33,093 nucleotides of DNA, from the NCBI GenBank assembly GCA_020719165.1, contig DYQT01000013.1:1-33093 (forward strand), written 5' to 3'. The notes below the pieces were generated by a model. It saw only the letters and a list, made by a program, of their open reading frames with translations, searched no databases and was not told the DNA's origin. This document shows, in pieces, positions 5,398 through 23,022 of the stretch. The DNA is from Draconibacterium orientale (lineage in GTDB: Bacteria > Bacteroidota > Bacteroidia > Bacteroidales > FEN-979). Positions within the stretch are counted from its first letter, which is position 1. The number at the start of each line of letters is the position of its first letter. Both the position numbers and the translations under genes were made by a program.

Positions 5398-8073
5398 ATG
5401 TTAAAAAAAGCTTTGATTCTGCTGCCTTTGGCGTTGCTGCTGCTCTCTTTGGTAAATAGTCCGGCTGGTAAAAGGCCCTGGAATGAAGAGAAAACAGACA
5501 GCCTCGGACCAGCTGTAACAGCGCACTCGCTGGGAATGATGCACAGCACCGTTCACTATGATCTGACACGATTCCTGGCTGTTCAAATGGGCCTTTCGCC
5601 CGATACGGCAGAGATAATCGCGCGGTTTTGTGCCCTGGTTGATCAGATCAACCCCAAACCAGGTTACCCATACCGCCCTTCACTGAACAGCACCAGCATC
5701 CCGGATACTTTTCCAGATTGGCCCGAAAGTATTGCGGGTACCGAAAGAGGGGGATTTACCGGCAATTCGCAAAATGAATTTACCGCTCAATACTGGCATT
5801 TTCCCTTTCGCGACCCGTCCGATTCGCTTACAGGCGATATTGTTTGGGGAACCTATCCGGAGGTTTCTGACTTTGATCATTTTACCGGGCCGCCGCATTT
5901 CTGGCGCGTTCCGATCTCCTATAATCTGAAAAGCATCATGAATTGGGCGTTGTACCATGGCGGGCAGGCTGGTTTACCTGATGAGCTTACGCCGGTTCAG
6001 GTAAAGTATGCTGATGCCGGCAGCTTGGGTTACCAGCTTGTGCAGCCAAATTCTATCCAGGCTTTTGGAATTTTTCTGCACTCCCTTGCCGACTCTTACT
6101 CTCATGAAGAGTGTATGGCCAAAGATACCATCCGGGCACATCCCGCAGGCGACCCCTATTGCGGATTAACCTACCATTCGGAACACGAATTTGCCTACGA
6201 CGTGAGCATGCGCGCCAGATTGCATGCAGACTCATGTGTTCATGCCCTTTGGAGAGCTATCAGGGAATACAAGAGGGTAAACAACATCACCGCTCCGGCT
6301 TTGTGGACAGCAGACAACAATGGATTTCAGGATGGCGATGGCATACCTGACCAACTGGAGGATGATTTCGATACAGATACCACGGAATCATTTCTCGAAC
6401 GATGGAAAAATCCTGCTCCGGGCGATTTGAATGGCGACGGAATAATCAATCACAGCGATCACAGCACCTGGAGAATTCACATGTGCAACATTGGTTTTCA
6501 GCCTTCCATCCAGGTTGGGATCAATTCAGACGGTAGTCAGCCGGCACCTTCTGCCATCCTTGATGTAAAGTCGGTGAATCGCGGATTGCTGATTCCCAGA
6601 GTTTCAACCTCTTCCCGCGACATCCTTCCGTCCCCCGCAACCGGACTTTTAATATACAACACTACCACAAATCAGTTCAACTATTACAATGGAAGTTTTT
6701 GGTGTCGAATCGAAACAACCTATCTCACCTCCAGTACAGGCACATTACATCCCGGAGGTGGAGTTTCGATAAGCGCATCACCCGGTGTATTGCCCGACAG
6801 CTCGGCAATGCTGGATGTAAATGATCCAAACCGGGGTATTTTATTGCCCCGGACAACGCCCGATTTCATTATGACTCCCGCTACCGGATTAACCATTTAC
6901 AACACTGCGACCAACCTTCTTAATTTTTATAATGGCAGCCAGTGGATTGCACTTTGCGCTGCATCCACCGGAACTGCAGGATTTGGCGGAAGTCAAAACC
7001 CGGCTGGTATGGCCATTAGCCCCAACGGCTCGAATTCCCACCATTCAGCCATGCTGGATGTGGCAGCGGTTGACAAAGGGGTGTTGATACCCCGACTTTC
7101 AGCCATACAGCGCGATTCATTGCTTCCCGCTGCAGGTCTGTTAATATACAATACCACGGCAAACAACATGGAGTACCATGATGGTTCATCCTGGTTTCAG
7201 TTAAAAACAAACATGCCCTCTTCCCCTGAAGGCGGAACCCAGGTTCCATCGCAAACGCAGATTATCTGGAACTGGAGTGCTGTTCCCGGCGTTTCAGGAT
7301 ATAAATGGCATGTTGTCAATGACTATGCTGCCGCGACGGACATGGCCGCCTCAACCACTAAAACCGAAACAAATCTTACCTGCGGAACAGCTTATACCCG
7401 GTATGTATGGGCCTATAATGCATGTGGATATTCTTCACCGGTAGTTCTGGCACAAACAACATCGGCTTGTCCTGCCTGTGGTACTTCAATCATCATCAGC
7501 CATGTGGCCGGTGTTGTGGCGCCGGTTGATAAATCGGTAACCTACGGCACGGTGACCAACATTCCGGGTGAGCCTGCAAAGTGTTGGATTACCAGCAACC
7601 TTGGCGCCGACCGGCAGGCATTGAGCAAAATTGACGGTACGGAGGCCTCTGCGGGATGGTACTGGCAGTTTAACCTCAAACAAGGTTATAAATATGGCAC
7701 GATCCGAATACCTGTTTCATTATGGATAACCAGTATCGGTGAGAATTCTGACTGGATTGCCGCCAACGATCCATGTTCCATTGAGCTTGGCGGTAATTGG
7801 CGGGTGCCATCCTTCTCTGAATGGACCAATACAGATGCAAGTGGTAGTTGGTCTGACTGGAACGGCCCATGGCTTTCGGGTTTAAAACTGCATTCTGCCG
7901 GTTATCTTTCAGGCAGTGATGGATCATTGCTTTACCGGGGTTCGGAAGCGGCATATTGGAGCAGCTCGCAGGATGATGTCAACCTTGGATGGAGCCTGTA
8001 TTTTAAAAGCGACTACAGCAGTTTGAACAACGACAGCAAAGCCTATGGCTTCCCGCTGCGTTGCATCAAATAG
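5398..8073 (+). CDS. Large secreted multidomain protein: N-terminal His-rich (possibly phospholipase C/DUF6765-like) region, dockerin/EF-hand-like segment, three LDV-LLIPR repeats, FN3-like region, C-terminal FSU/DUF1566-like domain
   Basis: 891 aa with signal peptide. FGIFLHSLADSYSHEECMAKD; GDGIPDQLEDDFDTDTTE and GDLNGDGIINHSDHSTW; three SAxLDV...G(L/I/V)L(I/L)PR...ATGL.IYNT...FYNGS.W repeats; YWSSSQDDVNLGWSLYFKSDYSSLNNDSKAYGFPLRCIK C-terminus. Confidence 0.8.
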   Translation: MLKKALILLPLALLLLSLVNSPAGKRPWNEEKTDSLGPAVTAHSLGMMHSTVHYDLTRFLAVQMGLSPDTAEIIARFCALVDQINPKPGYPYRPSLNSTSIPDTFPDWPESIAGTERGGFTGNSQNEFTAQYWHFPFRDPSDSLTGDIVWGTYPEVSDFDHFTGPPHFWRVPISYNLKSIMNWALYHGGQAGLPDELTPVQVKYADAGSLGYQLVQPNSIQAFGIFLHSLADSYSHEECMAKDTIRAHPAGDPYCGLTYHSEHEFAYDVSMRARLHADSCVHALWRAIREYKRVNNITAPALWTADNNGFQDGDGIPDQLEDDFDTDTTESFLERWKNPAPGDLNGDGIINHSDHSTWRIHMCNIGFQPSIQVGINSDGSQPAPSAILDVKSVNRGLLIPRVSTSSRDILPSPATGLLIYNTTTNQFNYYNGSFWCRIETTYLTSSTGTLHPGGGVSISASPGVLPDSSAMLDVNDPNRGILLPRTTPDFIMTPATGLTIYNTATNLLNFYNGSQWIALCAASTGTAGFGGSQNPAGMAISPNGSNSHHSAMLDVAAVDKGVLIPRLSAIQRDSLLPAAGLLIYNTTANNMEYHDGSSWFQLKTNMPSSPEGGTQVPSQTQIIWNWSAVPGVSGYKWHVVNDYAAATDMAASTTKTETNLTCGTAYTRYVWAYNACGYSSPVVLAQTTSACPACGTSIIISHVAGVVAPVDKSVTYGTVTNIPGEPAKCWITSNLGADRQALSKIDGTEASAGWYWQFNLKQGYKYGTIRIPVSLWITSIGENSDWIAANDPCSIELGGNWRVPSFSEWTNTDASGSWSDWNGPWLSGLKLHSAGYLSGSDGSLLYRGSEAAYWSSSQDDVNLGWSLYFKSDYSSLNNDSKAYGFPLRCIK
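6550..7203 (+). repeat. Three intragenic ~55-aa protein repeats
   Basis: Approximate units 6550-6711, 6799-6954 and 7045-7203: SAILDVKSVNRGLLIPR / SAMLDVNDPNRGILLPR / SAMLDVAAVDKGVLIPR, each ending YxNG/DGSxW. Confidence 0.85.
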
Positions 8074-12133: not shown

Positions 12134-12778
12134 CTATTTTATCAAAGACAAGCCTTCAACGGCCGAAGGATCTTTTGGTCTGTTGAGAAGAACCTTATTA
12201 AAAAGCACCTGAGCCTCCCGTAATTTTCCAAGTTTCAGATTGGTCCATGCAAACAAAATCATGCTGTCGTAATCGAAGGGATAAAGGTTTACAACTTTTT
12301 CAAGGTGTTTTTCAGCCTTTGCAAAATCTCTTCTGCCGTAATAGATAGATCCCATCCGGTAGTTGGCCAGGGTATTCTGCGGGTCAATTTTGAGAATTTC
12401 AGCATATTGGGAAACCACCTGATCCCAGTTTCCCAAAGCCGACGCGGGATTGGCGAATCCAAATTTGGCCTCAATGGCATATGGTTTCAGCGAAATCGCC
12501 TTCTGATAATAGGCAGATGATTCGGTGAACTGACCGGCAAGGTAGGTAACCCAGCCAAGTCTGAGATTAATTTCATAGAAATCTTCAAGATACACTTTTT
12601 TAAGAACTGCCGTGGCATCGGTAAAATTTCCTCTGGCCTCATATGCGTGACTTTTACTGAAAGCGTCCTGCAAAATCTGGTAGTCCTGTGCCTGAACAGA
12701 AAAAAATGAGATAAACATCAGCGAAATAGCGAAATGGCGAAATCTCTTTAAGCTGTGACTTTTTGTTATAGTTTCCAT
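12134..12778 (-). CDS. Exported TPR protein
   Basis: Signal peptide (FAISLMFISFFSVQAQ) and successive TPR-like helices (LAGQFTESSAYYQKAISLKPYAIEA, NTLANYRMGSIYYGRRDFAKAEKHLEKVVNLYP). Overlaps the upstream gene by 13 bp. Confidence 0.85.
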   Translation of the reverse strand: METITKSHSLKRFRHFAISLMFISFFSVQAQDYQILQDAFSKSHAYEARGNFTDATAVLKKVYLEDFYEINLRLGWVTYLAGQFTESSAYYQKAISLKPYAIEAKFGFANPASALGNWDQVVSQYAEILKIDPQNTLANYRMGSIYYGRRDFAKAEKHLEKVVNLYPFDYDSMILFAWTNLKLGKLREAQVLFNKVLLNRPKDPSAVEGLSLIK

Positions 12779-14256
12779 GTGATTCCTCCTATGATGGTGT
12801 TAGTGTTATATGGGACAAAAAGGGTTGATGGTTTTGTATTTACCTCATTGGTTGCGGGATTGGTGGTAAAATAATATTGTATGCTCTCTTTGCGGGAATA
12901 CTGATAGAGGAGTGAAAATTGAAGATGTTTCCCGACCAGAAAATAGAGACTGCCACTGGCACGATAATCAATTACGTCGCTGTTGTTATACACCACTGCG
13001 CCATTCATGATGCTTGCGTTGGTATAGTCGCCGTAATTAAAACTCCCTTCAGCCCAACACCAGGAGGTGATTTTTGCCCCCAAAACTTCACTGAACAAAA
13101 ATCGTTTATCTTTTCCCTGAAAAAAGCCCGTTACCGAAGTGGTGCTGTAAAGGTTAAGGTTGCCAAAAGGCAGCCAGGTAACCGAGGCTCCGGCCTGCTT
13201 TTGCTTTTTGTTGTTGAGGTTTGAATAGCTTCCCGAAATCCCGATGTTGACACGGCCAAACTTTTTCGACAATGCCAACCCCACAAAATAATTGGAGAAG
13301 GAGGTGTCGGATCGTGTGAAGGTATAAATAGTCCGATTGAAGGGGAATGTAACATACTCCTGACCCTCGTTCAGGTAATACCCGGTATCATTTACAGTTA
13401 CCTCCTCTGCCGATGCACTTACAAGCGGATAACTGACATAGATCAAATGAAAAGCGGGCATGATCCTGATTCCGCCATTCAAATACCAGGAGAGGCTGGC
13501 ATAGACTTCATGCTGGTTTACATTGTAACGGAAGCTGGTATCATAGATCACCCGCGGAAAAGAGTAGTGGTAATACTGTCCCCAACTCGAGTCGGCGATA
13601 CCATCGAGATGATCTTCAATACGGCTATACTGGATGTATTTTGTTTTAGAGAAGTTGAGGTAGTTATATGCCAGCGTTAGCCCGATCCGGTTTGAAAGGT
13701 TGAATTTCATCCCAAGATGCTCATACAGGTAGTTGCCATAAACATCTGTTTCACCATAAATGCTGTCGGCTTCCATCAGCGATGGTTTATCTTTGAGGGC
13801 GTTGTTGCTGCTCAGGGTATAACCGCTTTCGAAACTGAGGGCATCAACAAATCCTTTTTTGGCATCGATAACATTTTTTGCTTTTGCTGGGAGTGAGGCC
13901 TGAAGGAGCCTGGCCTCTTCCAATTGGTTTGTGAAGAGGTATGAATAATAGAGATAATCTGCAATCACGGGATCATCTGCTTCAAATTTTCGCGCTTTTT
14001 CCAGGTGGGTTCCTGCGGGAATGTACTCCCTTTTTTCATAATAGGCCAGCCCCATTCTGACACGAAGATAATAGAAGTCGATATCTGCGTGCAGGGCTTT
14101 TTTGCCTAGGATGATCACGCTATCCCATTTTTTTTCCAGAAAGTACTTGTAGGTTAATTCATCCACGGTTTTGTAATCAACGGTTGTGGAAGCCTTCAGG
14201 CGCTCAGGGGTCAATAAAAGGAGGGTAAATATTAAAGGAATCAGGAACTTTATCAT
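12766..14256 (-). CDS. TPR plus outer-membrane beta-barrel protein (YaiO-like architecture)
   Basis: Start MIKFLIPLIFTLLLLTPERLKA at 14256. N-terminal TPR-like region, then alternating aromatic beta strands ending TIIGGITWKL. Overlaps the upstream gene by 4 bp. Confidence 0.75.
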   Translation of the reverse strand: MIKFLIPLIFTLLLLTPERLKASTTVDYKTVDELTYKYFLEKKWDSVIILGKKALHADIDFYYLRVRMGLAYYEKREYIPAGTHLEKARKFEADDPVIADYLYYSYLFTNQLEEARLLQASLPAKAKNVIDAKKGFVDALSFESGYTLSSNNALKDKPSLMEADSIYGETDVYGNYLYEHLGMKFNLSNRIGLTLAYNYLNFSKTKYIQYSRIEDHLDGIADSSWGQYYHYSFPRVIYDTSFRYNVNQHEVYASLSWYLNGGIRIMPAFHLIYVSYPLVSASAEEVTVNDTGYYLNEGQEYVTFPFNRTIYTFTRSDTSFSNYFVGLALSKKFGRVNIGISGSYSNLNNKKQKQAGASVTWLPFGNLNLYSTTSVTGFFQGKDKRFLFSEVLGAKITSWCWAEGSFNYGDYTNASIMNGAVVYNNSDVIDYRASGSLYFLVGKHLQFSLLYQYSRKESIQYYFTTNPATNEVNTKPSTLFVPYNTNTIIGGITWKL

Positions 14257-16463
14257 CTCTTGTGTAGCAGGGTTACGGTAATACTCATCTCTTTTTCCCG
14301 AATGATGAATCGTTCCAGTCCATGCGGCCCGACAAACAGGTCGCATTCCATCTTTTTAATTTCGTAATTCCCGATTCTTGCACTGGTGACTGAATGTAAT
14401 TGTATGTTCGATTGCATCAATTCATCGTTCATGGTCACATAATGAAGAGAATAGTCGGCGTGGGCAAATATACAAAACGGTGCAGCAAAGTCTTGCAAAA
14501 TCCCTAAAATACGGTTATTAAAAGTGTTTACCGGATAATTATCTTTCACTTCAAGGTCGCGGTAATATCCCATCATGACTTTGTAGGAGGCAAGGTAGAA
14601 CTGAAAAAGCAGGGATGATTTATCCCCGTCGAAATGGGTGAAATAGTGAATCTCGCCATCATTGTAAAAATAGGCCTTCGATTTTGTTTTTTCACAAAAC
14701 ACAAAGGTACTGTTCAGTGCATCGATCTGAACCTCCCAGTCAACCTGGTATTCGGGTCCTGAATCCGGTGTTACCTGATAGCTGAATTTTTGTCCTGGTA
14801 TCAGGTGAAAAGCCCTTTCCAGGGAGGTGTTTTTCGTAATGTTGGATACCAGTTCATCCTTCAGCGGAGTCTCATACGATTTAAGAGCAAATGATCGCGG
14901 GGTATGGCTGATGAAATGACTAATGGGATAATCCAGGGTTTTTGAACCGATGTAGGGTGTTCCCTGAATCTGAAAATGAAGATGCGGATAGGGCGATCTT
15001 CCTGAATTTCCGCAGTGAGCCAAAATCTGCCCTTTCTTTACGGAGTCGCCCGCTGCCACCTTGATACTCCCTTTTTTCAAATGGGATACTTTGGTATAAA
15101 GCTGATCGGCATGCCGGATAATAATCGTATTACCCCAATTGTGCTCGAGGTCAACGTTTCCAATGTTATTCTCCTCCACATCTGTTGTCACCTCCTCAAT
15201 CCTGCCATCCGCCGGGGCAATCACGGGTTTATTGTAGGCATAGTAATCCTCGGGATAGTCGCCCTTTTCGGTATAGGTCAGTCCTTCTTCATCGATAAGT
15301 TCAAAATCCCAGGCATGGCGCCAATCGCCTTGGTGGGTATAGGTGCCATTGTGACCCTGGGTTACTTTCCAGGCTCCCCAAAACGGGAGAATAAACGGGA
15401 AGTAAATCGATTTTCCGAACCGGGCCTTGTAGTTGATGTGGGAGTAGAGGTTTTTTTCGGGGGAGTATTGTTGATATCCGACCAGTTCCGGTTTCGTAAA
15501 ATAGCGCTCACGGAATTTCAGGGAATATAGAAACAGCAGCACAACCATGTTAAACGGCAATGAATACACCGATAGCTGAAAAAGTGCCAGGATTGACTGG
15601 GTACTGGTAAGAATGATCGAAATAACGGGAGTTAGCAGGATCACCCAAAGGAACGACCATCGCGAAGGAATGATGAAGAAGCCTCCGATGGCAATAGAGG
15701 TCAGGATAAAATTAAACCCGATAAAGCCGTAACTCAATTCATGAATATCGGCACCCACGATTTGATAATAAAAATGTGCCGAGAAAAACCCAACGAGGGA
15801 CAGAATGAATGCAATGCGCGAATAAATGAGAAGACCGATGGCAATCAGGATGCCGGCAAAAAGGTGGTATTGAAAAAAAATAGCCCCCAATGAGGTGAAG
15901 TAGATCCGAACAGGTTCGGGTATATCCATCTCGAGGAACCAGTTGTAGGAAGATACCATTGGATGCCCGCCGAGAGAGAACATTTCATTGGTCATATAAA
16001 TACCATGCTCGCTCACTTGCAGTGTTGTAAATTGCCGGGTGGCGAGGCTTACCAGCCAGGTGGCAACCAGAAAAGAGAGGCTCATGTATGGGAGTCCGTA
16101 TTTTCCGATGGCGCCTTCGAACCAGAGGGTCAGGAATAGTGTGAGCATTGCGGCGAATGCCAGCACGATAAAAAATGAAACTCCCGGTTGGTAATAGCTT
16201 CCGAATCCCAATCCCACCAATAAACTATTGAATCCGTAGTAACCCTTTTTGATATTTGCCTGATTGAGGCCAATCAGGTATGCCAGGGTGTTTGAAATTA
16301 CCACAGCGAAGAGCCCGCTTGTTCCCGCCCAAAAATCGAAAAAGGAGACAATCAGGAGGATTGTTGCAAACACCCGGTTGTTCGAAAAAAAGATTTGGGG
16401 GTAGCTGTTTATGATCCCTGAGAAAAAGGATGGAAACATGTCGGGAACCGTGTTGTTCTTCAT
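14253..16463 (-). CDS. Urea-transporter-like membrane domain fused to an M23/LytM-type peptidase domain
   Basis: 736 aa. N-terminus SGLFAVVISNTLAYLIGLNQANIKKGYYGFNSLLVGLGFGSYY and KYGLPYMSLSFLVATWL (UT family). Middle HAWDFELID...KPVIAPADGRIEEV...GNTIIIRHADQLYTKVSHLKKGSIKVAAGDSVKKGQILAHCGNSGRSPYPHLHFQIQ (M23). Confidence 0.88.
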   Translation of the reverse strand: MKNNTVPDMFPSFFSGIINSYPQIFFSNNRVFATILLIVSFFDFWAGTSGLFAVVISNTLAYLIGLNQANIKKGYYGFNSLLVGLGFGSYYQPGVSFFIVLAFAAMLTLFLTLWFEGAIGKYGLPYMSLSFLVATWLVSLATRQFTTLQVSEHGIYMTNEMFSLGGHPMVSSYNWFLEMDIPEPVRIYFTSLGAIFFQYHLFAGILIAIGLLIYSRIAFILSLVGFFSAHFYYQIVGADIHELSYGFIGFNFILTSIAIGGFFIIPSRWSFLWVILLTPVISIILTSTQSILALFQLSVYSLPFNMVVLLFLYSLKFRERYFTKPELVGYQQYSPEKNLYSHINYKARFGKSIYFPFILPFWGAWKVTQGHNGTYTHQGDWRHAWDFELIDEEGLTYTEKGDYPEDYYAYNKPVIAPADGRIEEVTTDVEENNIGNVDLEHNWGNTIIIRHADQLYTKVSHLKKGSIKVAAGDSVKKGQILAHCGNSGRSPYPHLHFQIQGTPYIGSKTLDYPISHFISHTPRSFALKSYETPLKDELVSNITKNTSLERAFHLIPGQKFSYQVTPDSGPEYQVDWEVQIDALNSTFVFCEKTKSKAYFYNDGEIHYFTHFDGDKSSLLFQFYLASYKVMMGYYRDLEVKDNYPVNTFNNRILGILQDFAAPFCIFAHADYSLHYVTMNDELMQSNIQLHSVTSARIGNYEIKKMECDLFVGPHGLERFIIREKEMSITVTLLHKR

Positions 16464-17819
16464 TTAGTTTATCTTCCGGAGGTGTTCAGGGATGTTTTCC
16501 ATGCTGTTCATGTTTGCAAGCGATTCCTCTGTACGGATCACATGAAGTTTTTCGTCCATGTCAATTAACAAAATGTTCGGGCGAAGGGTGATGAATTGCA
16601 TCCATTGTGTCATATTGTAAGCGCCAACACTGTGAATTACCACGTGTTCGCCTTTATTCAGCAGTGGCAGAGAGGTGCTTTCCCTGATCACATCAATGTT
16701 CATGCACAGCGGACCATAAACGCAGGTATCTTCGGTATATTGGGTAAACGATTGGGCCGGGGTGATTTTGTGATCGTACCAGAAGGAGGTGAACAAAATA
16801 TTCACACCAATGTCGAGGATGGTATTCCTTCGCCCGGTACTCGACCGTTTGTTGGAGATGACAGTCCCAAGCAGATATCCGGCCTCATCAATGAGGGCAC
16901 GACCGGTTTCGAGGATAAGCAATGGCAGTTTATCTTTCTGGAAATTGCTGTTCAGTAAAGCGGTTGAAATGGCCTCCGCAAAATCATTAAAAGATGGGCT
17001 GGTGTCGGCACCGGGTAAATAAGAACCTTTGAGCGTGTTTTTTGAGGCAAAGCCTCCGCCAAGATCGATGTATTTGATTTCGTGTTTGAATTTGTGTTCA
17101 ACCGACAGCGCCAGTTCAGCAAGTTTAGTAGCGGCAACACCATATGCATGCGGCGACAGCATAAATGTGCCGATGTGGCAATGTAACCCTACCAATTCCA
17201 TTTTACCCGAATGCATAATTTTATTCAGGGCATCCCAGGCCTGACCATTCTCATAATTAAAGCCAAAGCGGTCCCATATCGGATATACACCCGTATCCAT
17301 GTTCACCCTGATGGCAACACGCGGACGTTTTTGCAATAATTCGGCAAGTTCTGTAATGGTATATAGCTCATCCAGATGATCGATGTGTATCAGCGAATCG
17401 TTTTTTATGGCTTTGGTCAGATCTTTTTCGCTCTTATCGGGACCATTGAAGATGATCTTGCGGCCATCAATACCCATTCCGATGGCTTTATCATACTCAA
17501 AACCCGACACTACCTCTGCCCAGGAGCCCTCCTGGTGGAAGATGCTGCATATTGCGTTGAGATAGTTGGTTTTATATGACCAGGCAAACTGAACTTTAGG
17601 GTAAAGTGTTTCAAATGCCCGTTTTGCCTTTTTGATGGTGCTGCGGATAATCTTTTCGGAAATAACAAACAAGGGGGAACCATATTCTTTGACCAGTTTT
17701 GCAACAGAATGTCCGTCAATATGGGTTACAGGTTCATAATCCATTCTTGTTCCGAATTTATTCGGCATGCCGGTTTCAAGCTTCTTTATCACCGGGCGTT
17801 CATATCTAATCTTGCTCAT
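16464..17819 (-). CDS. Fold-type III PLP-dependent decarboxylase (Orn/DAP/Arg decarboxylase family 2-like)
   Basis: Start MSKIRYERPVIKK at 17819. FAWSYKTNY (PLP Lys region), GLHCHIGTF, IDLGGGFASK, ILETGRALIDEAG, YGPLCMNIDVI and GAYNMTQWMQFI. Confidence 0.88.
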   Translation of the reverse strand: MSKIRYERPVIKKLETGMPNKFGTRMDYEPVTHIDGHSVAKLVKEYGSPLFVISEKIIRSTIKKAKRAFETLYPKVQFAWSYKTNYLNAICSIFHQEGSWAEVVSGFEYDKAIGMGIDGRKIIFNGPDKSEKDLTKAIKNDSLIHIDHLDELYTITELAELLQKRPRVAIRVNMDTGVYPIWDRFGFNYENGQAWDALNKIMHSGKMELVGLHCHIGTFMLSPHAYGVAATKLAELALSVEHKFKHEIKYIDLGGGFASKNTLKGSYLPGADTSPSFNDFAEAISTALLNSNFQKDKLPLLILETGRALIDEAGYLLGTVISNKRSSTGRRNTILDIGVNILFTSFWYDHKITPAQSFTQYTEDTCVYGPLCMNIDVIRESTSLPLLNKGEHVVIHSVGAYNMTQWMQFITLRPNILLIDMDEKLHVIRTEESLANMNSMENIPEHLRKIN

Positions 17820-17883
17820 AACGTATTGTTTCTTATTTACCAAACTATATTATTCGTTGTGCTGTATTTGACATTCATTTTTA

Positions 17884-18930
17884 TCAGAGTTCGCCGTGCA
17901 TGCTTATCTGCTCGAACTCCTCCCGGTCAACGATCATATCCCAGGAGTAACGGATAAACATCTTCCCCACATCATAGGTAGTAAAAGGCTCCACTTTCTC
18001 ACCCAGGGCGAGGTTTACAAGCGCTTCGGGAATGTTTTGTCCGACTCCTACCGCGAGATATATCCAGGCAGGCAGCCGCGGGTTAATTTCTAAAAGGTAA
18101 AGTTCCCCATCTTTGTTTTTCATCAATTCCAACTCAAACCCGCCACGCCATTTTGTGTTTCGCAGAAATGTACGGGTCATCTCCAGCATTTTCTGATCAG
18201 AGATGGTAATGCCTCCCCATGCCTTGCCTTTGTCGGTAATGTATTGTTTGCGCATCGGAACTGCTCCAATGGTGTTTCCATTGCCATCGCCAAGCCCTGT
18301 CACATTGAATTCGGTACCGTGAATGAACTCCTGGATAATGATTGGAAGCCCCCACTTTGCGCTTATTTTATTGAAGTAGCTCTTTATCTGCTCAATACTG
18401 TAGGCGATGGAAGCATCGTAAAATTTGCCTTTAACCAGCATCGGGAAGTTAAATTCGGAAAGTAAACTATGAACCGTGTTCAGATCATAAATCACCTTAC
18501 TTTTTGGGACACTGATGCCATATTTCTTTCCAAATTCGTTCAGGTTCACTTTTTCACGCTCTTCAAACTGATTCAGGGTTGGCAGAAACATGTGGATTCC
18601 CATCGTTTTGAGCCTGGGCTCCAATTTGATAAAAGGGAAGAGCTCGGCATCAAAGTTCGGGATGATTACATCCAGTTTCTCTTTTTCATGAATATACTCC
18701 AGCCGTGCCAATAAGGTATCGATGCCGGCAGAGGGATAGGGTATGGAATAGGTGCGGTCAACAATGTTGTGCATATAAATGCCCGGTTCCAAACTTTCGT
18801 ACGACAATCCGATGATCTTTACGTCGAATGTGGCAGCTTCCCGCAAAGCTCTGATCACCGATACCCCGGGCCCCGGCGAGTCGATGGCATTCAGACCGGT
18901 TACACCGATGTTAATCGTTCGTTTCTTCAT
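17884..18930 (-). CDS. ATP-grasp domain ligase (CarB/PylC-like)
   Basis: MKKRTINIGVTGLNAIDSPGPGVSVIRAL; FPMLVKGKFYDASIAYS; PIIIQEFIHGTEFNVTGLGDGNG; GGFELELMKNKDGELYLLEINPRLPAWIYLA (ATP-grasp metal-binding ExN motif). Confidence 0.88.
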   Translation of the reverse strand: MKKRTINIGVTGLNAIDSPGPGVSVIRALREAATFDVKIIGLSYESLEPGIYMHNIVDRTYSIPYPSAGIDTLLARLEYIHEKEKLDVIIPNFDAELFPFIKLEPRLKTMGIHMFLPTLNQFEEREKVNLNEFGKKYGISVPKSKVIYDLNTVHSLLSEFNFPMLVKGKFYDASIAYSIEQIKSYFNKISAKWGLPIIIQEFIHGTEFNVTGLGDGNGNTIGAVPMRKQYITDKGKAWGGITISDQKMLEMTRTFLRNTKWRGGFELELMKNKDGELYLLEINPRLPAWIYLAVGVGQNIPEALVNLALGEKVEPFTTYDVGKMFIRYSWDMIVDREEFEQISMHGEL

Positions 18931-19171
18931 TGGTTTCAATCAGGTTATGATTATAAAGGATGCCTACAAAATCGTGGTAGTCTTTCTCAAATGTGGCTTT
19001 TTCAGTACTATACTTCTCAAGGATGGCTTCACTGATTTTATCCACAGATTTATCCTCACGAATGAGTTTCAGGATCTCAACCCCGATCGGGTTTACCGAG
19101 AATGATTCGCCGGTTACCGGGTTGAACAGCAGCCCGGCCTCGCTTACCGCAACATTTTTTCGTAGTTTCAT
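18911..19171 (-). CDS. PqqD family protein
   Basis: 86 aa: MKLRKNVAVSEAGLLFNPVTGESFSVNPIGVEILKLIREDKSVDKISEAILEKYSTEKATFEKDYHDFVGILYNHNLIE, typical PqqD/RRE-like layout. Overlaps the ATP-grasp start by 20 bp. Confidence 0.85.
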   Translation of the reverse strand: MKLRKNVAVSEAGLLFNPVTGESFSVNPIGVEILKLIREDKSVDKISEAILEKYSTEKATFEKDYHDFVGILYNHNLIETNEETND

Positions 19172-19244
19172 AATTGTATCTTTTTATGGAGACACACTGT
19201 CGTGCATCTTTGAGTTTTGGTAAATGTTTCCAGGTTGCAATATT

Positions 19245-19268
19245 ACATCAGGGAGTAATCCCGGATGT
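19245..19268. promoter_or_regulatory. Dyad ACATC-A-GGGA-(GTAA)-TCCC-G-GATGT
   Basis: 9 paired positions with one mismatch and a 4-nt centre, in the gap between the AraC-like gene and the PqqD-like gene. No T-run on either side. Confidence 0.45.
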
Positions 19269-19322
19269 TACGAAATTTTGGGAACGATGTATAAAATTTT
19301 ATGATTGGTTTTAGAGAATATT

Positions 19323-19922
19323 TTATTCGGCAGAAACTATTTTATCAAGGCCTGAACGGCCCATCGCAGGAATCACCTTATACTCGGTTACGGAGATGCC
19401 CGTAATTGATTTGAACTGCGTCGACAGGTATTGTACGCTGCTGTAACCCATCATGTAGGCGATTTCGCTTAACGTAAGCTCGCCGTATTCAATAAGTTCC
19501 TTTACTTTCTCAATCTTATGCAGGATGGTGAATTTTTCCAATGTGGTGTTTTCATGTTTTGAAAACAAAGAAGAGATGTAGGGGTACGACATTCCAAACC
19601 GTTCAACAAGGTAGTCGGAGTTGCGCACCATGGCATTGTAGGTAGAGTTATGTACCAGATCGATCACGGCCTGCTTAATCTGCTCTACCAGCATTTTTTC
19701 CTTATCCGTGATAATTTCAAACCCATATCCTTCCAGGATCGCTTCAATTTTTTTCCAGGTAAACCTCTCCTGGTCGGCAGCGAGAACAAGGGTTCCCAGT
19801 TTTATATCAATAATCTCGATGCCCTCCACCGAAAATTCTTTGCGCAGCAAATGGATGCAACAACTGCTGGTCATGTTCTTTACATGAATGGTTCGACGCG
19901 GAAATGGGGTTTTACTTTTCAT
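19323..19922 (-). CDS. AraC family regulator with N-terminal HMA-like fold
   Basis: C-terminal HTH (MSYPYISSLFSKHENTTLEKFTILHKIEKVKELIEYGELTLSEIAYMMGYSSVQYLSTQFKSITGISVTEYK). N-terminal IHVKNMTSSCCIHLLRKEFSVEGIEIIDIKLGTLVL resembles a heavy-metal-associated domain. Confidence 0.88.
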   Translation of the reverse strand: MKSKTPFPRRTIHVKNMTSSCCIHLLRKEFSVEGIEIIDIKLGTLVLAADQERFTWKKIEAILEGYGFEIITDKEKMLVEQIKQAVIDLVHNSTYNAMVRNSDYLVERFGMSYPYISSLFSKHENTTLEKFTILHKIEKVKELIEYGELTLSEIAYMMGYSSVQYLSTQFKSITGISVTEYKVIPAMGRSGLDKIVSAE

Positions 19923-19931
19923 GTGGATGGC

Positions 19932-21191
19932 TCACACAAGGTCATAGCGTGATGAGTCCTGGCGGATAAAGATAAACAATAAAACCGTAAATGCCCACAA
20001 AGAAGATCCTCCATAACTCACAAAAGGCAGTGGAATGCCGATAACGGGAGCAAGCCCGAGCGTCATGCCGATGTTGATGGCAAAATGAAAGAACAAGATG
20101 GAGGCAACGCCATAGCCATAATACCGGCTGAACCGCGAGCGTTGTCGTTCGGCCATCAGGATAATGCGGATGAAAAGGCTGAGGTAAAGGATCACCAGAA
20201 CCGAGGATCCCAAAAACCCCCACTCCTCACCCACGGTGCAAAAGATAAAATCGGTGCTTTGCTCGGGAACGAAGTTGTATTTTGTTTGCGTCCCCTGTAA
20301 AAAGCCTTTTCCGAAAAACCGTCCCGATCCGATGGCAATGAGTGACTGGTTTACGTTGTATCCGGCCCCTTTGAGGTCAACATCGTGTGCAAGCAATACA
20401 TGGATACGGTTGCGCTGATGTGGCTCCAGAATGTTATTAACGCTGTAATCAACGGAGAAAACAAATCCGACAGATCCCAGAAATATTGCACTTATGAGCA
20501 GTATTGTGCGGAGTTTGCGGTTGCTGAAATAATAAAATAGACCGGCTGTAATAAGCAGTACAATAACCAGGATAACTTTCGACACCAGCAACGCCAGGAT
20601 ACCCAGTACCGGCAATACAATGAAAGCCAGCGGAACGAACCCTGTGAGTCCGGCGCGATAAAGTACAATTACCAGAGCCAGGAATACGATGGCTGAACCA
20701 ACATCATGCTGTAAAAAGACGATTGCTGCCGGCACGAGAATAATTGCGGAGGCGATCACCAGGCTGCGCAATTTGTTAATGGTGACATCGAGGGTGCCCA
20801 AAAATTTTGCGAGGGCCAGTGCAGTGGCCATTTTAGCGAATTCAGCCGGCTGGATGCCAAATCCTCCGATGGCAAACCAGCCCTTGGATCCCGACACTTC
20901 GCGTCCCGAAAAGATCACGACCACCAGCATGAAAAGGAAAAACCCATAAATAAACCAGGCAAACTGCGAAAAAAATTTGGGATCGACAATCAGTATTCCC
21001 AAAGCCAGAAACATTGCAGCAATGATAAAGAGCATCTGCTTGCCGTATTTCTGTGTCAGATCCACGATATTGTTGTGGGCATCGTTATACACCGCGGCGT
21101 AAATGTTCAGCCAGCCAATAAAGACCAGCGCGAGGTATAGTACAAGCAATACCCAGTCAATCCGGTAAAATATCCCCTTGTCTTCTCTCAC
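19932..21191 (-). CDS. rodA: Rod shape-determining protein RodA (SEDS family)
   Basis: Multi-TM SEDS protein: GSKGWFAIGGFGIQPAEFAKMATALALAKFL, FVPEQSTDFIFCTVGEEWGFLGS, GIPLPFVSYGGSSLWA. Confidence 0.95.
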   Translation of the reverse strand: MREDKGIFYRIDWVLLVLYLALVFIGWLNIYAAVYNDAHNNIVDLTQKYGKQMLFIIAAMFLALGILIVDPKFFSQFAWFIYGFFLFMLVVVIFSGREVSGSKGWFAIGGFGIQPAEFAKMATALALAKFLGTLDVTINKLRSLVIASAIILVPAAIVFLQHDVGSAIVFLALVIVLYRAGLTGFVPLAFIVLPVLGILALLVSKVILVIVLLITAGLFYYFSNRKLRTILLISAIFLGSVGFVFSVDYSVNNILEPHQRNRIHVLLAHDVDLKGAGYNVNQSLIAIGSGRFFGKGFLQGTQTKYNFVPEQSTDFIFCTVGEEWGFLGSSVLVILYLSLFIRIILMAERQRSRFSRYYGYGVASILFFHFAINIGMTLGLAPVIGIPLPFVSYGGSSLWAFTVLLFIFIRQDSSRYDLV

Positions 21192-23022
21192 TTTCAGGCA
21201 GTTTTCCGTTTATAAGATTCCCATTTATCATGCTGTTTTCCAGCTCTTTGCGTTTGACGGTGCGGTTCAGGTATTTTTCAATCATCAAACTTGCGATGGG
21301 GGCGGCCCATGCGGCGCCATAACCGGCATTTTCAACTACAACCGAGATGGCAATTTTTGTATTATTTAACGGGGCAAAGGCAATAAAGATCGAATGATGT
21401 TTGCCGTGCGGATTCTGTGCGGTACCGGTCTTTCCACCCATGGTGATGCTGTCGATTTTTGCAATTCTTCCGGTACCGTCGGTGATCACATTCGCCATTC
21501 CCTGAATCACAACATCGAAGTATTTCTCGTCGACCAGCACTTTATGTTTGGTAGTGAATGCCTTATTCAGACTGTCTTTCCGTCCGATAGCACGGATAAT
21601 ATGAGGGGTATAGTACCATCCGCGGTTGGAGATCAGGGCTGCCTGGTTGGCCAGCTGCATGGGCGTTATTCCGATCTCGCCTTGACCGATGCCGAGAGAA
21701 ATGATGGTCATCGATCGCCAGCGGTTTTTGCCATGGTATTTGTCGTAAAATGCAGGTGTGGGAATGTTTCCGTTGAGTTCGCCCGGGATGTCGATGCCCA
21801 GCTTTTTACCGAATCCGAAGCTCATCACCTCTTTCCGCCAGTTTTCGTAACCCTGCCGGGTGTTCAGGAATGATTTTTTATCGATGATCGATTTAAATAC
21901 CCTGCAGAAATAGGTGTTGCATGATATCTGGATTGCCCCGATCAGATCGAGCGGGGATGGATGGGGATGGCATCCCACCATTTTCCCATTTCCAAGCGGA
22001 AATCCACCGGGGCACCCGTACCGCGTGTCGGGGAAAAGCACTTGTTCCTGTTGCCCTACCAGTGCATCAACCAGCTTGAATGTTGACCCCGGAGGATACA
22101 TGGCCATCAGGGCACGGTTGAAAAGGGGTACAAATACGGTATCCTGCAGGAGTTTTGTATAATTTTTTTTCCTGATGTTGCCAGCCAGCAGGTTTGGATC
22201 ATATGACGGGCTGGAAACCACGCATAAAATTTCACCTGTTTGGGGTTCAATGGCTACGATGCTCCCTTTTTTATTGGTCATCAGCAGCTCGCCATACTCC
22301 TGCAATTCGGCATCCAGCGATGAGTACAGATCTGTTCCTGCCACCGAGGTAGTGTCGTACCTCCCTTCCCGAAAACTTCCCTTATCGCGGTTGAGCACAT
22401 CGAATACCCGAATCTTCATCCCCTTTTTTCCCCGGAGGACATCTTCATACGATTTTTCAATTCCGCTGATGCCAATATAGTCGCCCGAACGGTAATAGGG
22501 GTTTTTCTCAATCATGTCGGGACTTGCCTCACCAATATACCCGAATGCGTGAGCGGCAACTTTGTAGGTGTATTTGCGAAGGGTTCGGGGTTGAACATAA
22601 AATCCAGGAAAGAGAAATAGCTTCTCCTCTAAAAAACCGTAGTTGTCGCGCGTGATTTGGGCTTCAAAAATGGAGGGGCGGTAAGGAGAATATTTTCTGG
22701 CCTTTCTCAACCGATGGATAAACTCATCTTTGTCGATTCCAATCAGGTAGCAAAGCGCCATTGTGTCGGGGCTCTTTACCTGTTGGGGGATTACCATCAA
22801 GTCATATGCAGCCTCGTTGTATATCAATAGCTTGCCATTGCGGTCAAACACGAGTCCACGGGCCGGATATTGGGTTACATAACGCAAAACATTATTGTTG
22901 GCAGACAGAATGTATTTATCAACCAGTATCTGCACATAAAAAAGACGGGCCAGATAGAAAAGCCCGATAAGCAGGAAAAACCCGATAATGATGAATTTCC
23001 GGTCAGCGTAAATTCGATCCAT
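21157..23022 (-). CDS. mrdA: Penicillin-binding protein 2
   Basis: Class B PBP: PARGLVFDRNGKLLIYNEAAYDL, active-site PPGSTFKLV, SCNTYF, and GGKTGTAQNPHGKHHSIFIAFAP (KTGT). Overlaps rodA by 35 bp. Confidence 0.95.
   Translation of the reverse strand: MDRIYADRKFIIIGFFLLIGLFYLARLFYVQILVDKYILSANNNVLRYVTQYPARGLVFDRNGKLLIYNEAAYDLMVIPQQVKSPDTMALCYLIGIDKDEFIHRLRKARKYSPYRPSIFEAQITRDNYGFLEEKLFLFPGFYVQPRTLRKYTYKVAAHAFGYIGEASPDMIEKNPYYRSGDYIGISGIEKSYEDVLRGKKGMKIRVFDVLNRDKGSFREGRYDTTSVAGTDLYSSLDAELQEYGELLMTNKKGSIVAIEPQTGEILCVVSSPSYDPNLLAGNIRKKNYTKLLQDTVFVPLFNRALMAMYPPGSTFKLVDALVGQQEQVLFPDTRYGCPGGFPLGNGKMVGCHPHPSPLDLIGAIQISCNTYFCRVFKSIIDKKSFLNTRQGYENWRKEVMSFGFGKKLGIDIPGELNGNIPTPAFYDKYHGKNRWRSMTIISLGIGQGEIGITPMQLANQAALISNRGWYYTPHIIRAIGRKDSLNKAFTTKHKVLVDEKYFDVVIQGMANVITDGTGRIAKIDSITMGGKTGTAQNPHGKHHSIFIAFAPLNNTKIAISVVVENAGYGAAWAAPIASLMIEKYLNRTVKRKELENSMINGNLINGKLPESERRQGDILPD

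Follow-up and report, generated by a model that had tools for sequence, protein, structure and literature searches.

A conserved six-gene unit of Bacteroidota combining a predicted ligase-decarboxylase pair with an altered urea-type channel fused to an M23 domain

A 33,093-nucleotide stretch of Draconibacterium orientale DNA (contig DYQT01000013.1, assembly GCA_020719165.1; hereafter the window) carries six adjoining or overlapping open reading frames (ORFs), here called A to F, all on the minus strand at positions 12134-19171. Comparison across genomes revealed that these six genes form a real conserved unit and not a chance association. We propose, with a probability of roughly one half, that this cassette synthesizes and exports a decarboxylated amino-acid conjugate by way of two modules. 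The genes are as follows.

Gene A, 18911..19171, minus strand: PqqD-family protein of 86 amino acids (Pfam PqqD, 2.4e-12).
Gene B, 17884..18930, minus strand: ATP-grasp carboxylate-amine ligase (ATPgrasp_Ter, 1.4e-11); ATG start, with a TTG at 18939 possible.
Gene C, 16464..17819, minus strand: alanine-racemase-fold (AR-fold, fold III) decarboxylase dependent on pyridoxal 5'-phosphate (PLP) (Orn_Arg_deC_N, 5.2e-30); ATG start, with a TTG at 17843 possible.
Gene D, 14253..16463, minus strand: fusion of a urea transporter (UT) with an M23 peptidase (Pfam UT, 3.8e-57; Peptidase_M23, 1.3e-17), comprising a urea-transporter fold (~12-315), a LytM/M23 metallopeptidase domain (~360-505) and a beta-rich C-terminal domain (~510-736).
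Gene E, 12766..14256, minus strand: secreted protein with TPR helices followed by a beta-barrel, as predicted by AlphaFold2 and Foldseek.
Gene F, 12134..12778, minus strand: TPR protein (Pfam) of 214 amino acids with an N-terminal signal-like segment, conserved near D and E.

With ATG starts for both B (18930) and C (17819), the gap between these two genes is 64 bp; D abuts C (16463/16464), the ATG of E overlaps the stop codon of D by 4 bp, and E and F overlap by 13 bp. A first-pass annotation of this DNA had described six abutting minus-strand genes, and the overlaps that it gave hold with ATG starts for B, C and E. Its domain names agreed with Pfam, and its assignment of a TPR-barrel to E agreed with the AlphaFold2 model and Foldseek.

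In a phylum-wide sample of 396 Bacteroidota genomes, 34 proved to encode relatives spanning both the UT and the M23 parts of D, a cassette frequency of ~9%. When the same number of phylum genomes was searched with B alone, strong matches (E < 1e-90) fell in exactly the same 34 genomes, with one weak match elsewhere. A search of a plasmid collection with C at 1e-60 returned no match. From a public species-level collection we examined the best 80 loci out of 587 candidate stretches; the latter figure is not a count of cassettes, as the search patterns were M23 motifs. These 80 loci encode proteins 46-83% identical to D and lie mostly in Bacteroidota metagenome-assembled genomes, with a small number bearing the label Neomarinimicrobiota, Chlorobiota or some other. 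In 71 of the 73 loci with enough flanking sequence, A, B, C and D were grouped in that order, and F was nearby in 71. Spacing was at most 100 bp between A and B in 86 of 88 loci, between D and E in 84 of 86 and between E and F in 79 of 80. Across 84 loci, the distances computed pairwise for B, C and D correlated at 0.91-0.93, as would be expected if the genes are inherited together; shared species history also contributes. The gene order recurs across the phylum, and the lack of co-conservation that the first-pass annotation had named as a refutation did not occur.

The loosest junction was that between C and D (at most 100 bp in 68 of 102 loci), where some loci carry an insertion encoding an extracytoplasmic function (ECF)-type sigma factor, an eIF2B-like protein, an acyltransferase-like protein or unrelated genes. 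Two loci, L089 and L094, contain D-E-F without A-B-C within 9 kb; in both, A-B-C lies at another genomic site, with B 74-76% identical. Since both loci that depart from the A-D order keep A-B-C elsewhere in the genome, we read the unit as two modules, ABC for cytosolic chemistry and DEF for the envelope, which are both kept though unlinked in two genomes. Among the insertions, the ECF-type sigma factor-like gene (~190 amino acids, recognized by eye) was seen in L115, L119, L120, L137, L138 and L144, and the eIF2B/MtnA-fold protein (~300 amino acids) in L084, L087, L095 and L106 (PF01008, 2.8e-28 for L087).

The channel of D has an altered selectivity filter. We mapped it on the Desulfovibrio vulgaris transporter dvUT, whose residue numbers are used here; in the published dvUT structure, E187, T130, T294 and Q24 reportedly have urea-filter roles. 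The Phe slots and Q24 are kept in the D fusion family, Q24 being the only one of these four residues retained. At E187, 102 of 107 fusions have Ala or Leu; at T130, 100 of 108 have Ser; and at T294, 105 of 108 have Ser, Val or Ala. The eight stand-alone urea transporters compared, from the same phylum, retain both Thr residues and have Glu (six) or Gln (two) at the position of E187. In a 386-genome sample, UT genes were present in the 34 cassette genomes and, as genes for stand-alone proteins of ~300 amino acids, in ten other genomes. A strong match to urease alpha was present in one of 12 cassette genomes checked, with a marginal match in one more. The 'urea channel' function assigned by the first-pass annotation did not survive this comparison: because the filter residues are lost and most of the cassette genomes checked lack urease, urea is unlikely to be the substrate of D, and urea transport or use was rejected. 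Judging from these replacements, a change of substrate is very probable for the channel.

The second part of D was modelled as LytM-like, and H377, D386, H461, H494 and H496 are invariant in the D family; with this complete zinc-binding and catalytic set the domain is predicted to be a peptidase. Net charge, summed per alignment column, was ~+1.5 at the N-terminus, ~+1.7 in the segment past the last transmembrane helix and ~-1.4 in the central loop. A basic C-terminus is common to stand-alone urea transporters and the D channel. Known urea transporters have both ends in the cytosol (UT-B). Because the positive-inside pattern of D matches them, the M23 domain is predicted to face the cytosol; an inverted orientation in the D family is conceivable. 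A natural split of D in L061 was not used as evidence on the location of the M23 domain, since coding continues across the junction in another frame and the split looks like a frameshift. The beta-rich C-terminal domain (~230 residues, window positions 14253-14936) was predicted with high confidence. It has no Pfam family, and the 50 best Foldseek matches were only UT-, M23- or LytM-containing entries.

Both enzymes of the ABC module have their catalytic residues (numbers for B and C count from the TTG start). In B, K170, E269, E271, E284, N286, P287 and R288 are invariant in all aligned members; a search of B against PDB sequences gave no match at 0.001. In C, the lysine that binds PLP (K91), the catalytic cysteine (C380) and Y409 are all kept; further residues noted in C are H223, the M381-N382-I383-D384 that follow C380, and Q413. 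Two further motifs, T-[SA]-F-W-Y and G-A-Y-N-x-T-Q-W, are near-invariant in the C family. The best solved relative of C was the N-citrylornithine decarboxylase FigC (7kh2), with 201 bits against 135 for the top diaminopimelate decarboxylase. Among NCBIfam models FslC (227.5) scored above lysA (212.2), both under their curated cut-offs, which for LysA (TIGR01048) means 212 against 297.9. A second LysA-like gene elsewhere in the genome is likewise under this cut-off.

In FigC, the catalytic Cys is followed by a Met in place of the acidic residue to which a free side-chain amine binds in other members (PMC7857480). This Met is present in 102 of 102 C members. FigC has been grouped with SbnH, AcsE, MccE and BtrK, none of which is tied to polyamine synthesis (PMC7857480; see also PMC8503589). 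The citrate-contacting residues H357 and R387 of FigC are, on the other hand, replaced by I383 and Q413 in all 102 members of the C family, and C is therefore predicted to act on a bulky conjugate other than a citryl one.

For gene A, an 88-member alignment revealed a core conserved around N-x-A-x-S-x-x-G-[FL]-x-F-x-P-x-x-G-x-S-[FY] and a C-terminus that varies in length and sequence. A carrier role of the LysW type requires a fixed C-terminus; because that of A is not conserved, A is unlikely to be a LysW-like carrier, and we rejected such an amino-group carrier role. PqqD models from ribosomally synthesized and post-translationally modified peptide (RiPP) pathways (WgkC, ScmD, lasso) matched A, all below cut-off, the best being WgkC with 32.1 bits against a cut-off of 110. 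Among 15 close relatives of the window, neither the DNA upstream of A nor the B-C gap showed a conserved small ORF, which gives no indication of a RiPP precursor linked to the cassette; a precursor gene elsewhere in the genome is possible. There was also no acyl carrier protein among the six genes, nor, by eye, among the conserved neighbour clusters. In the L045-L060 clade, most loci have directly upstream of A a conserved secreted protein of ~280 amino acids that carries an FG-GAP stretch and, at its C-terminus, a signal for type IX secretion.

No Pfam family matched gene E, even at a threshold of E = 1. Its AlphaFold2 model (38 sequences; pLDDT, the predicted local distance difference test, 89.5) contains an N-terminal signal-like helix, TPR helices (28-130) and a predicted beta-barrel of ~14 strands (137-495), and its structural neighbours by Foldseek include FadL, TodX and BcsC. 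E is replaced in the L045-L060 clade by a protein of ~275 amino acids located after F. This protein matches the barrel part of E by profile comparison (probability 73%, E 3.2e-5), which is suggestive, though not proof, of a substitute for the barrel.

We propose the following sequence of events. In the cytosol, B would join an alpha-amino-acid-bearing group to a carboxylate partner by an amide (peptide-like) bond, with A binding or positioning the substrate or the enzyme, and C would then remove the alpha-carboxyl group from the bulky conjugate to leave an amine. The product may exit via the repurposed urea-type channel of D, whose M23 domain would cut an amide or peptide bond in the product or in its carrier, and the TPR/outer-membrane barrel pair of E and F would carry it to the outside. 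The sequences themselves show that the genes form a unit, that the catalytic residues are present and that the channel filter is altered, and the barrel is predicted; the order of the steps, the direction of export, and the site and target of the M23 domain are what we infer. In outline this agrees with the first-pass annotation, which had suggested an operon with an amide-ligase and decarboxylase pathway and an outer-membrane barrel, and this suggestion is supported. Several points weigh against the proposal, however. A UT-type channel is passive and offers no transport energetics, and a urea-sized pore may be too narrow for a conjugate, in which case a small product of cleavage, or a part in gating, would be more likely. 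A cytoplasmic location by the positive-inside rule is unusual for an M23 domain. The nature of the substrate is predicted from the genes, and export is presumed over import. More tentatively, and with doubt outweighing confidence, filter loss and fusion to a cytosol-facing M23 amidase/peptidase might have turned a urea channel into a dedicated gate that processes and releases decarboxylated amino-acid conjugates of a new class, delivered to the surface by their own outer-membrane barrel, in a phylum-wide and undescribed Bacteroidota system.

The DNA upstream of A contains three further features, the first two of which are kept among close relatives.

19236..19245, minus strand: TAATATTGCA / TAATATTG box upstream of A, resembling the Bacteroidota -7 box.
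19266..19300, minus strand: direct-repeat operator-like element (AATTTTATACA N10 AATTTCGTAACA).
19323..19922, minus strand: AraC-type regulator, immediately upstream of the direct-repeat element.

The box is probably the operon promoter, as judged from its resemblance. The direct-repeat element occurs in one copy in the available genome, an assembly that is 81% complete, and in 21 loci the cassette has related AraC proteins encoded nearby. All this is most naturally read as a dedicated, regulated operon. By eye, the N-terminus of the AraC-type regulator is HMA-like with paired cysteines (M-T-S-S-C-C), and the two cysteines are kept in a relative from another locus; the regulator may sense a metal or a thiol. 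Directly upstream of the regulator, at window positions 19932-23022 on the minus strand, are RodA and PBP2-like elongasome genes, which are linked to the cassette in nine loci of a close clade, the window included. Elsewhere in the window, a large secreted-looking protein of 891 amino acids with repeated 'SAMLDV...GVLIPR' segments is encoded at 5398-8073 on the plus strand.

Other readings of the cassette were weighed against the same evidence. ABC could make an amine or amino-acid tag for peptidoglycan or the envelope, with a periplasmic M23 domain cutting crosslinks so that the tag attaches or the E/F machinery crosses the wall. The M23 catalytic residues are all present, the structural neighbours of the domain are cell-wall peptidases or their activators, and RodA and PBP2 genes lie just upstream in the clade of the window. 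That linkage is, however, confined to nine loci, and the predicted cytoplasmic placement, with a basic C-terminus shared by stand-alone urea transporters, weighs against a simple peptidoglycan role. Peptidoglycan had been named as a possible target in the first-pass annotation; the predicted peptidase stands but the target is in doubt, and we regard such a role as unlikely, if worth keeping in mind. A cytosolic M23 domain would, conversely, suit the removal of a leader in a RiPP-like pathway, in which A would recognize a precursor encoded elsewhere, B ligate, C decarboxylate, and the channel and barrel export the core. The PqqD family does include RiPP chaperones, but the scores of A below every RiPP PqqD cut-off and the lack of a conserved small ORF in the close relatives make this improbable.

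The machinery might also run inwards, with E/F and D importing an amide- or peptide-like compound, M23 cleaving it and B and C processing the products. Import would be compatible with a channel that is passive and a barrel whose fold resembles FadL; an ATP-consuming ligase is nevertheless typical of synthesis, and no TonB-type receptor or catabolic enzyme was found among the conserved neighbour clusters, so that salvage appears somewhat less probable again than a RiPP-like pathway. The proximity of C to the siderophore decarboxylase FigC, together with the HMA-like, cysteine-paired N-terminus seen by eye in the upstream AraC protein, could point to metallophore production, as in the rhizoferrin, staphyloferrin B or vibrioferrin pathways. 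We consider this very unlikely: an IucA/IucC-type synthetase of the NRPS-independent siderophore (NIS) kind was present in none of 12 cassette genomes checked, FigC H357 and R387 are uniformly replaced in C, and no siderophore receptor is conserved nearby. A citrate siderophore of the NIS, rhizoferrin type was rejected, with no NIS synthetase and the citrate pocket not kept. An anti-phage defence system was also rejected, as none of the six genes matched a PADLOC model.

The first-pass annotation did not recognize the genes as a named system, and in keeping with this a keyword search of the open-licence literature found no published description of the six-gene unit or of a UT-M23 fusion. Each domain is already known; set against each named system tried, the unit lacks at least one defining feature. 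The literature covered was open-licence, and an earlier mention is possible. About 9% of the Bacteroidota genomes sampled thus carry a conserved unit with complete catalytic residues for which no described function was found. From it we predict a new exported metabolite, an altered channel selectivity tied to named residues and, possibly, a role in the cytoplasm for an enzyme of the M23 family, which is known for cutting cell walls.

Comparison with known systems places the cassette beside several of them. Bacteroidetes graspetide loci (PMC8939145) likewise have an ATP-grasp enzyme in Bacteroidota, but the cassette lacks a precursor peptide beside its genes, and a text search of the graspetide survey found no mention of urea, M23 or decarboxylase (PMC8939145). 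C shares with the FigC/FslC clade (SbnH, AcsE, MccE, BtrK), which acts on conjugated amino acids (PMC7857480), the AR-fold PLP decarboxylase architecture and the Cys-Met of the specificity loop; it differs from FigC in having Ile and Gln for H357 and R387, its own family signatures and no citrate synthetase partner. D retains the fold of dvUT and other PF03253 urea transporters (TM-score 0.82-0.86 to dvUT, by target length), but E187, T130 and T294 are changed and an M23 and a beta-rich domain are fused on. E resembles the TPR-barrel exporters of the BcsC type, of which PgaA is another example, in its predicted arrangement of periplasmic TPR followed by an outer-membrane barrel, but its TPR part is short, it has no sequence match and the unit encodes no polysaccharide synthase. 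In butirosin synthesis, BtrJ and BtrK are an ATP-grasp enzyme and an AR-fold decarboxylase acting on a carrier protein. The cassette similarly has an ATP-grasp ligase gene adjoining that of an AR-fold decarboxylase, both with catalytic residues, plus a gene for a small protein of ~85 amino acids; the small protein is PqqD-like instead of an acyl carrier, and DEF is without counterpart in the butirosin pair. By analogy with butirosin and related pathways, the chemistry of the cassette may work like that of their ATP-grasp and AR-fold decarboxylase pairs.

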